Source: Bacilli bacterium
Lineage (GTDB): Bacteria; Bacillota_I; Bacilli_A; RFN20; CAG-826
NCBI GenBank assembly: GCA_017447165.1
Contig: JAFSOD010000001.1
Location: 62,001 to 126,000, forward strand
Direction of reading: 5' to 3'
Length of the DNA stretch: 64,000 bases
Under the pieces are notes generated by a model that was not told the origin of the DNA, made no database searches, and worked only from the letters and a program-made list of their open reading frames with translations. Both the position numbers and the translations under genes were made by a program. Numbering within the stretch: position 1 is the stretch's first letter; every line of letters begins with the position of its first letter. Below, piece after piece: positions 50,135-52,962 of the stretch.

Positions 50135-51461
50135 GAAAATGTTACTTTCCGTTTTGCTTTTAAGTGGTGCTTTAGCTTTATCTAGCTGTTCATTATTTAA
50201 TGATGACGACATCATGCAACCAAATATCTATCACCCAGAATATGATGAAGAGGAAGAAATTCCTGATGGAAGCGTTGTTGCTGGTGGAGTTGTCGGAAAA
50301 GAAGATACCGAACTACATTCTTTAGTGTTTAAGAATTTGTCTTACGGAACTTATAACCAAGATACAGATACTTATACTATTCCAAACACCTATAAAGAAG
50401 GTGGAATTCATCATATGGGATATCACGTTAATAATGACCAAGATTATCCTAATGCGACGAGTTCAAATAACAACTATGACTTATATGTTCCTGCTACAGC
50501 TTCTAGAACCGGTAAACACACAGTCATCTTGTTTATCCACGGAGGTGCTTGGGTTTCTGGATTTAAGACTGACGTTAATCCTTATATTCACGAATTTGCT
50601 AAAAAAGGATATGTGACTGCGACTATTAAATACACACTTTTAAAAAGAACGATGGATGATAATTCTTTATCTATCTTCCGCAATTTAGATGAAATTGATG
50701 CTTGCATCAAATCTATTAAAACTATATTAACTGATGACCTTAAATTTGATACCACTAAGTCAGAATTAGTTATCGGTGGAGCTTCTTCAGGAGCGCACCT
50801 ATCCATGCTATATGCTTATTCACGTGGCAAGGAATCCGCTCTTCCAATTAAATTTATCGTTGATGCTGTTGGCCCTATCGATATTAAGCCAAATGCATGG
50901 AAAGCTTTTACTCATGCCACTGATGCGGTTTTAGATGCTGGCTTAGATAAAGACGCAATTGCTGCTCAATCATCTAACTTAAGCGAACTAACTATCGCTG
51001 GAGAAGGTGGTAAAAAATGGACTGATTATCAAACATTTAGAATCGCTAACGGTATGTGCGGTCTTCCATATACATTAGAGCAAGTGAAAGCTGCTACTGA
51101 TGAAAATGAAGATTATGTTACTAATCCAAGTGCCCCTGCTTATGTCAACATGATTGCAAACAATGGTGGAGAAGATCAACTTTCTGTTACTTATTGGATT
51201 AATAAAGTGGATGAGGCATCTAAATTCCCAATTATCTGCGCATACGCCGGCAAAGATTCTATTGTTGGTATTAATCAATATGCAACCTTACAAACTGCAT
51301 TAGAGGCAAAAGGAATCAAGTCTTTTACTGCAGCTAGTGGAAAGAAATATATCTATTTCAAAAACAGTGAACACCAATAATTAACTCCTGAAAAAGACGC
51401 TGAACATTATAATGAATTAATTAACGCGGTTCATGCTTGGTGTCAGGCAGATAATATTTAA
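50127..51461 (+). pseudogene. Lipoprotein alpha/beta-hydrolase (esterase) with an in-frame stop near the C-terminus
   Basis: The first 417 codons encode a lipoprotein: signal peptide, lipobox ALSSC at about 18-22, then an esterase domain with the oxyanion-hole HGGAWVSG near residue 135, nucleophile elbow GGASSG near 217, and a likely catalytic His in NSEHQ at the very end. TAA 51378-51380 then interrupts the frame, but it stays open for 26 more codons (LTPEKDAEHYNELINAVHAW onward) to TAA 51459, and that stretch looks like the normal final helix. GGAGG lies 8 nt before the ATG. The shortened protein may still work, since the triad is complete. Confidence 0.75.
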
Positions 51462-51482
51462 CATAAAATTTTTTCAAGTAAA

Positions 51483-51504
51483 AAGCAGAATTATCTGCTT
51501 TTTT
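51483..51504 (+). terminator. Terminator after the esterase gene
   Basis: AGCAGA - ATTA - TCTGCT followed by TTTTTA. Confidence 0.8.
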
Positions 51505-51513
51505 ATACGCGTA

Positions 51514-51522
51514 TGTTATAAT
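51514..51522 (+). promoter_or_regulatory. Extended -10 promoter of the structured RNA
   Basis: TGT-TATAAT (51514-51522) is a strong extended -10 element directly after the terminator. No clear -35 is seen. The predicted start is near 51529. No coding frame of note follows. Confidence 0.6.
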
Positions 51523-51528
51523 ATATAT

Positions 51529-51740
51529 GTATTTTTTTAGCAGACTATCGGCGCTATGATCTAGCAATATAATTTGCAAAGTCGACCATACGCAGGTACA
51601 CGATAGGGCACCCTAATAGAAACTGCAAGATTGGACGTGTTAAGATCTTGCATTGTGGAAAGCATCGCCCAGAAGATAAACAAATGTGCTCGATGAACGT
51701 AAGAGTTCACACATTACATTATCCACGCTCCACACAAATT
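51529..51740 (+). ncRNA. Candidate structured non-coding RNA of about 200 nt
   Basis: No convincing coding frame exists here, but several helices can be drawn: CTATCG (51545-51550) with CGATAG (51601-51606), enclosing small hairpins GCTA/TAGC and GCAA/TTGC; TGCAAGAT (51624-51631) with ATCTTGCA (51645-51652); AATGTG (51683-51688) with CACATT (51710-51715), continued by TGAAC (51694-51698) with GTTCA (51705-51709); and TGTGGA (51654-51659) closing on TCCACA (51729-51734). It has its own promoter. It does not match SRP, RNase P, tmRNA, T-box or common riboswitch signatures that I know. A raiA-type or 6S-type RNA is possible but unproven. Confidence 0.6.
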
Positions 51741-51761
51741 ATTAATTAATTTGAATCAGTG

Positions 51762-51857
51762 GCCATCCAAAAGAGGATGAAACACCAGTAACTATGGTTG
51801 ATAGGGATATCAGCAGTTAGTTACAAAATAGGTGTTTTCATTTGGATGGCTTTTCTT
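51762..51857 (+). ncRNA. Long near-perfect hairpin with U-tail before the RhuM-Fic gene
   Basis: Nested pairings run the whole length: GCCATCCAAA (51762-51771) with TTTGGATGGC (51841-51850), TGAAACACC with GGTGTTTTCA (one bulge), GTAACT (51788-51793) with AGTTAC (51819-51824), and GTTGAT with ATCAGC around a six-base loop. TTTTCTTA follows, so it can terminate transcription. The 12-nt TCCAAAAGAGGA of its 5' arm recurs at 51882-51893, over the ribosome binding site of the next gene. It may end the preceding RNA or act as an attenuator. Confidence 0.65.
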
Positions 51858-51902
51858 ATCTCCTTTTGAAGACACCCTGTGTCCAAAAGAGGAGGTATAT
51901 AA

Positions 51903-52850
51903 ATGGACAAATTTCAATTAGTCAGATTTACTGACAAAAATTTTGAATTGGATGCGCGTGCCGATTCAGAAAATGAAACCGTATGGTTAACGCAAAAAGA
52001 AATGAGCCTTTTATTTGGTGTGGATACCGATACTATTGGTCTTCATATTTCGAACATTCTAAAAGAAAAAGAACTCGATGCTTCAACAACCGAGGAATCC
52101 TCGGTAGTTCAAAAAGAAGGCTCTAGAAACGTAAAACGTAGATTGAAAATCTATAATCTAGACATGATTATCTCTGTTGGATATCGAGTGAAATCCAATA
52201 GAGGAATTCTCTTTAGAAGATGGGCAAACCAGGTTTTAAAACAATATCTTATTCAAGGTGTTGCGGTTAATGAAAAAAGAATCGCAACTCTTAACAAGGT
52301 GGTAGATATTCAAAACAGGATGCTCTCGTATTCTTTAAACATTGATAGAGAAGAACTATCTAAAGTTATTAACGAATATACAAGAGCGTTAGATCTTCTT
52401 GATAGTTATGACCATCAAACATTAGAAAAGCCAAAAGGCACTAAGTCTGATTATGTCATGACTTATGAAGAAGCTAGAAGTATTATCGATTCCATGAAAT
52501 TTAATGATATATCTAGCGTCTTTGGAGTGGAAAAAGAAGAAGGAAAACTTAATGGTATAATTGCACAAGTTTATCAAAACGTCTTTGGGCAAGAACTATA
52601 TCCTTCAATTGAGGAAAAGGCTGCACACTTACTTTATTTCCTGGTTAAGGATCACCCTTTTGCTGACGGCTGTAAAAGAATTGCAGCTACTTTGTTTATT
52701 AACTTCTTATATAAGAGCAATCACCTTTATAGGAATAACAAACAAATCATTTCAAACGAGGCTCTTGTAGCGGTAACAATACTAACCGCCGAAAGTAATC
52801 CGGATGAAATGGAAATCATTGTCAAACTGATTACTAACTTGCTTCAATGA
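51903..52850 (+). CDS. RhuM-type protein with C-terminal Fic/Doc domain
   Basis: A 315-residue protein. Residues 1-130 match the RhuM (virulence RhuM) domain: an N-terminal strand pair, VWLTQKEMSLLFGV helix-turn-helix-like segment, and YNLDMIISVGYRVKSNRG. Residues about 180-310 form a Fic/Doc domain with the core HPFADGCKR at 251-259, where the usual Asn is Cys257. Fic domains transfer AMP, phosphate or other groups to proteins. GAGGAGG precedes the ATG. The stop is TGA, unlike most neighbours, and the gene is likely horizontally acquired (inference). Confidence 0.88.
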   Translation: MDKFQLVRFTDKNFELDARADSENETVWLTQKEMSLLFGVDTDTIGLHISNILKEKELDASTTEESSVVQKEGSRNVKRRLKIYNLDMIISVGYRVKSNRGILFRRWANQVLKQYLIQGVAVNEKRIATLNKVVDIQNRMLSYSLNIDREELSKVINEYTRALDLLDSYDHQTLEKPKGTKSDYVMTYEEARSIIDSMKFNDISSVFGVEKEEGKLNGIIAQVYQNVFGQELYPSIEEKAAHLLYFLVKDHPFADGCKRIAATLFINFLYKSNHLYRNNKQIISNEALVAVTILTAESNPDEMEIIVKLITNLLQ

Positions 52851-52857
52851 AAAAAAG

Positions 52858-52882
52858 AAACAGTGCAACGCACTGTTTTTAA
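52858..52882 (+). terminator. Terminator after the RhuM-Fic gene
   Basis: AAACAGTGC - AAC - GCACTGTTTTTAA; the A-rich 5' side also allows termination of the convergent tRNA-Gly. Confidence 0.8.
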
Positions 52883-52888
52883 ATCGCC

Positions 52889-52962
52889 TGGAGCAGGTGA
52901 CGGGAATCGAACCCGCGTATTCAGCTTGGAAGGCTGAAGTTCTACCATTGAACTACACCTGC
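52889..52962 (-). tRNA. tRNA-Gly (TCC)
   Basis: A minus-strand cloverleaf of 74 nt. Acceptor GCAGGTG (52962-52956) / CACCTGC, discriminator T, encoded CCA (52891-52889). The anticodon loop CTTCCAA gives TCC, reading GGA/GGG and, by wobble, other glycine codons. Confidence 0.95.

Follow-up and report, generated by a model that had tools for sequence, protein, structure and literature searches.

The interval 51514-51740 of the window (the whole 64,000-nucleotide stretch of DNA analyzed here) is the 5' two thirds of one folded RNA of approximately 330 nt (about 51530-51855) that leads into a gene for a RhuM-Fic protein. We consider it probable, with a confidence of roughly 70%, that this predicted leader, of which the interval is the 5' domain, controls the RhuM-Fic gene in cis as a default-off attenuator, a generic lock on risky genes that moves as a module. 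The predicted structure, the linkage of its two parts, the terminator, and the gene swaps are shown by comparison of related copies; attenuation we infer from the layout of these elements, as we do repression, a signal, and a physiological role. The original prediction described an orphan structured RNA ending at 51740, matching none of the common RNA families, and carrying its own extended -10 promoter; structure and promoter are borne out below, while the RNA runs some way beyond that end, overlaps a known family, and looks like an exchangeable off-switch and no orphan.

Extent and structure of the RNA

A cmscan search identifies the COG3943 RNA (RF02941) at 51724-51835, with a score of 108.7 bits against a gathering score of 71.8 and a full-length match (model positions 1-108) whose start falls within 51514-51740. 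At this locus it lies upstream of a COG3943/RhuM gene (PF13310 in 51903-52850), and most other copies of RF02941 precede genes other than COG3943/RhuM. This is the sole relevant Rfam match; nothing else credible was found at E <= 10 in 51380-51920, where no match was obtained to raiA or 6S RNA (the two types that had been suggested), AbiF RNA (RF03085), T-box, group I intron, or other Rfam families. RF02941 is thus already known, and the 5' two thirds and the putative switch appear to be undescribed in the literature searched, which does not mention the COG3943 RNA (the 2017 source description falls outside that literature). The elements of the RNA and its upstream flank are as follows.

51480-51504 (+): terminator-like hairpin with T tail, 5' of the promoter, AAAAAGCAGA-ATTA-TCTGCTTTTT, from sequence reading
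51514-51522 (+): extended -10 element TGT-TATAAT, TGTTATAAT, from sequence reading
51534-51619 (+): whole P1-P3 domain
51534-51540/51613-51619 (+): helix P1, covariation in 6/7 pairs
51545-51550/51601-51606 (+): helix P2, inside P1, covariation in 3/6 pairs
51551-51558/51587-51593 (+): helix P3, inside P1, nearly invariant
51624-51631/51645-51652 (+): helix P4, 99.7% of cells paired, two-sided changes at 8/8 pairs
51637-51641 (+): P4 loop GUGUU, conserved in 77/78 complete copies
51654-51659/51729-51734 and 51662-51663/51727-51728 (+): helix P5, 100% paired, compensatory changes at two positions
51675-51723 (+): P6, variable peripheral hairpin inside P5
51675-51679/51719-51723 (+): base of P6, covariation in 5/5 pairs
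51683-51698/51705-51715 (+): apical stems of P6, varying among copies
51724-51835 (+): RF02941, containing P7-P11, from cmscan

The two parts are joined by helix P5, which pairs 51654-51663 in the 5' part with 51727-51734 in the Rfam match and shows U-A, G-C, and C-G pair types at one position. Because P5 spans the Rfam boundary, the RF02941 model, which draws its first 11 positions as unpaired, splits a helix. A covariance model built from the 5' part only (R1, from which P6 was omitted because it is misaligned in alignment A2) finds a match immediately 5' of RF02941, with fixed spacing, in 79 of the 81 places that the order scan gave; R1 has four additional matches, three of them at contig ends. 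The 5' part and the COG3943 RNA are thereby shown, by comparison, to form what we predict to be one RNA with its own promoter and helices P1-P11.

Compensatory changes among relatives, which the original prediction proposed as a check, were found in an alignment of 42 copies with the same domain layout: the hand-drawn structure P1-P11 is 97.3% paired, and two-sided changes occur in 37/69 pairs. It scores 0.427 for covariation, whereas shuffles score 0.157 and versions with slid partners at most 0.085. Having been drawn from these very sequences, the structure has an advantage over the slid versions, but when every pair of columns was scanned without guidance the top helices were P1, P4, P5, P6, P7, P8, P10, and P11. 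By itself the folding energy of 51529-51745 gives no significant signal (z = -0.48), and the case therefore rests on comparison. The 8-bp stem noted at the outset is exact and corresponds to P4; the two-part stem is present, but it lies in the variable hairpin P6. Some copies, among them L084, L086, and L071, lack P2 and P3, leaving P1 as a plain hairpin, which suggests that this domain is dispensable or exchangeable. The GUGUU loop of P4 is exactly complementary to AACAC (51781-51785) in P9, both being invariant in nearly all copies; a pseudoknot between them is possible and could compete with P9, and its invariance means that covariation cannot judge it.

As predicted, TGT-TATAAT follows directly after a T-tailed hairpin, and a consensus scan gave no match at 51480-51504. 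A hexamer close to TATAAT is found at the same one or two offsets from P1 in 53/69 copies. Counting hexamers is by itself weak evidence in such AT-rich sequence (54% of shuffles reach 5/6), so the fixed position is the better argument for a promoter, which lies inside the block common to the copies. Upstream, an esterase-like gene ends at 51380; in the relative L096 the open reading frame continues through the matching approximately 29 codons, which are still in frame in the window (51372-51461), so that in the window a stop codon appears to have cut the gene short at its C-terminal end.

Terminator, alternative helices, and ribosome site

The 3' end of the RNA carries the elements listed here, followed by the gene.

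51761-51855 (+): T1, intrinsic terminator, GGCCAUCCAAA (51761-51771) with UUUGGAUGGCU (51841-51851), then a U tract; stem element TTTGGATGGC
51831-51876 (+): AS, alternative helix, GGUGUUUUCA (51831-51840) with UGAAGACACC (51867-51876), excluding P9
51860-51895 (+): hairpin masking the Shine-Dalgarno sequence AGGAGG (51890-51895)
51903-52850 (+): RhuM-Fic gene, 315 aa, Pfam PF13310 and PF02661, PADLOC candidates PDC-S23 and PDC-S05

T1 lies downstream of the Rfam model and has the consensus GGCC(A/G)TC... with ...GA(T/C)GGC, then a T tract. It forms at least 7 pairs in 77/79 copies, has a T-rich tail in 76/79 (at least 6 T within 9 bases from the stem end), and occurs in compensatory forms (GGCCATCAC/GTGATGGCT and GGCCGTCACT/AGTGACGGCT). 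Its 5' strand is also used by P8 (51764-51768/51775-51779), so that T1 and P8 are mutually exclusive, and an intrinsic terminator is thus set against a conserved helix ahead of the gene in 77/79 copies. Further downstream, the strand 3' of the terminator and the 3' strand of P9 can together form AS (GGTGTTTTCA with TGAAGACACC across copies); AS has at least 8 pairs in 65/79 copies, against 19% of shuffles, and would undo P9. An upstream CTCC-type strand masks the Shine-Dalgarno sequence, and the stem that it forms is at least 7 long in 92% of copies, compared with 38% of shuffles. A start-codon hairpin (TTGTCC...GGACAA), seen by eye in several copies, was discarded, with a mean of 5.65 against 5.60 in shuffles.

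T1, P8, AS, and the Shine-Dalgarno hairpin are, as far as can be read from sequence, parts of an attenuator. In the resting state T1 would form and the ribosome site would be masked, giving a short RNA with the gene off. A signal read by the 5' domain would stabilize P8, GGUGU would then be freed to pair with GAAGACACC, and with that pairing RNA polymerase would pass and the ribosome site would open. Simple folding places the T1 state below the P8 state in 78/79 copies, by about 12 kcal/mol on average; with a gap this large in favor of the terminator, reaching the on state would require that the 5' domain, a protein, or the order of folding contribute substantially.

Downstream genes and exchange of the leader

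The first gene after the RNA belongs to one of seven unrelated sequence groups, from which representatives were compared with Pfam and PADLOC: DUF1016/YhcG PDDEXK nucleases, in some cases preceded by a DUF4314 gene (45 copies in all), RhuM or RhuM-Fic (13 copies), an unnamed family of about 117 aa (13 copies), BrnT with an apparent BrnA behind it (four copies), a 60-aa family (two copies), KilA-N (one copy), and an open reading frame that by eye resembles a phosphoesterase (one copy). These genes are mostly toxin- or defence-like, and PADLOC lists the DUF1016, RhuM, and KilA-N proteins as phage-defence candidates, a listing and no proof of function. Within the genus 15 of the 21 RNA copies precede DUF1016 or RhuM genes, even though these genes total only about 70 in 19 genomes, and most of these genes have no such RNA, indicating that it is an optional regulator and no obligatory partner.

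When the interval 51514-51740 alone was the query, 12 of 41 related genomes yielded 16 places between them, nearly all adjoined by RF02941, and an RF02941 search found 81 places in 57 of the 245 genomes of the order. A strict pattern gave 84 stretches among 84,980 species, practically all from uncultured Bacilli, and to judge by their record titles many come from the guts of herbivores, the rumen among them. Scans of the class and the phylum brought up no match beyond the window's own family, the order scan included two genomes from another family, and blastn found no copies in phages or plasmids. One copy is on a contig listed as viral (L234:9797-10120), the other long open reading frames of which look cellular by eye; there the RNA and T1 are followed by a second terminator-like hairpin and by no gene within approximately 110 bases behind T1, and this copy counts against the leader reading.

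Copies whose RNAs reach at least 80% identity across 250 nt form 221 pairs, and in 111 of these the proteins encoded behind them show no detectable similarity to each other. G151 carries two RNAs that do not differ over 306 nt, one before a DUF1016 and the other before a RhuM-type gene, and G016 carries two that agree fully over 300 nt, one ahead of a 60-aa gene and the other ahead of a DUF1016 gene; in several such pairs the homology spans the promoter region through the Shine-Dalgarno hairpin and then ends. At a tRNA-Pro site G226 and G234 have the left flank, leader, and right flank in common, but between the Shine-Dalgarno hairpin and the stop codon one genome has a RhuM gene where the other has a DUF1016 gene. 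At the site of the window itself, the RNA and RhuM are both missing between the esterase and tRNA-Gly in G017 and G002, whereas RhuM is present in G015 and G001 behind leaders that belong to other classes.

The main rival is a trans-acting antitoxin or partner RNA, in which the terminated RNA of about 320 nt binds or neutralizes the downstream protein. An RNA with its own promoter, a terminator ahead of the gene, and toxin-like genes downstream would all suit it, but the same RNA, up to 100% identical, stands before unrelated proteins, which argues against specific protein binding. Since the majority of the DUF1016 and RhuM genes in the genus also do without the RNA, tandem repeats are absent, and the BrnT copies have an apparent BrnA of their own, we think this explanation unlikely.

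A gap of 32-52 bases separates the end of many RNA-gene units from a convergent tRNA gene (Gly, Pro, Arg, or Leu), and in others the gap to tRNA-Trp, His, or Glu is about 185-275 bases; tRNA-adjacent units include that of the window (52850-52962) and those at L018, L019, L026, L027, L032, L034, L042, L048, L052, L057, L071, and L085. RhuM genes without the RNA in G011 (L105, about 460-500) and, as a broken remnant, in G018 (L096, about 1000-1050) have a copy of the tRNA-Gly 3' end on the far side, as if integrated at the tRNA. An integrated element was considered for the RNA-gene units and rejected, no tRNA-end direct repeats of at least 12 bases flanking them. The sharp homology block, the gene swap at one site, and the proximity to tRNA genes could also mean that the block is mainly a recombination site, or a landing site for exchanged genes, that folds as single-stranded DNA, its regulatory look being secondary. 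This is quite improbable, because many of the kept pairs are G-U, the promoter, terminator, and Shine-Dalgarno masking all indicate RNA, and the units lack those tRNA-end repeats. Two separate RNAs, one of about 200 nt followed by an independent COG3943 RNA, might be read from an Rfam model that covers the 3' part only and begins unpaired, but this is scarcely credible given that a covarying helix, P5, already contradicts the split and that the parts co-occur so consistently.

Implications and comparison with known systems

A cis-acting attenuator is thus the reading we prefer, and the presence of the same leader before unrelated toxin- or defence-like genes suggests a generic lock exchanged as a module. 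More tentatively, it may be a dedicated sensor of infection or stress, common to and moved between unrelated single-gene immune effectors as a plug-in lock; we hold this to be possible and rather less likely than not to be correct, but if true, a genome could take up new toxic defence genes safely. Leaders controlling one gene family are common. To our knowledge no other structured leader of such size both serves at least seven unrelated protein groups, mainly candidate immune or toxin genes, and moves as a module from promoter to ribosome site. The comparison also completes an Rfam family of no assigned function, the model of which contains neither the 5' two thirds nor the expression platform, and a completed model would make the signal and the switch directly testable.

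In layout the locus is similar to AbiF-RCd22 (PMC12373285). Like AbiF RNA (RCd22) and the type III toxin-antitoxin RNAs, it has a structured RNA with its own promoter just 5' of a toxin-like gene, but here a short repeated antitoxin unit is missing, neither a ToxN nor an Abi_2 protein is present, and the RNA is not tied to one protein partner. A type III system was rejected for want of tandem repeats in 51400-51910, and membership in AbiF because RF03085 does not match and the gene encodes RhuM-Fic and no Abi_2. With attenuators and riboswitch leaders it shares a large 5' domain, exclusive helices, an intrinsic terminator, and a masked ribosome site, whereas it matches no riboswitch or T-box family and its genes are toxin- or defence-like and mutually unrelated. 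The closest relation is to RF02941 itself, of which 51724-51835 is a full-length member before a COG3943 (RhuM) gene; most genes behind the copies are not COG3943, and the RNA described here is three times longer than the model, extending it by P1-P6 in the 5' direction and by T1, AS, and the Shine-Dalgarno hairpin in the 3' direction.
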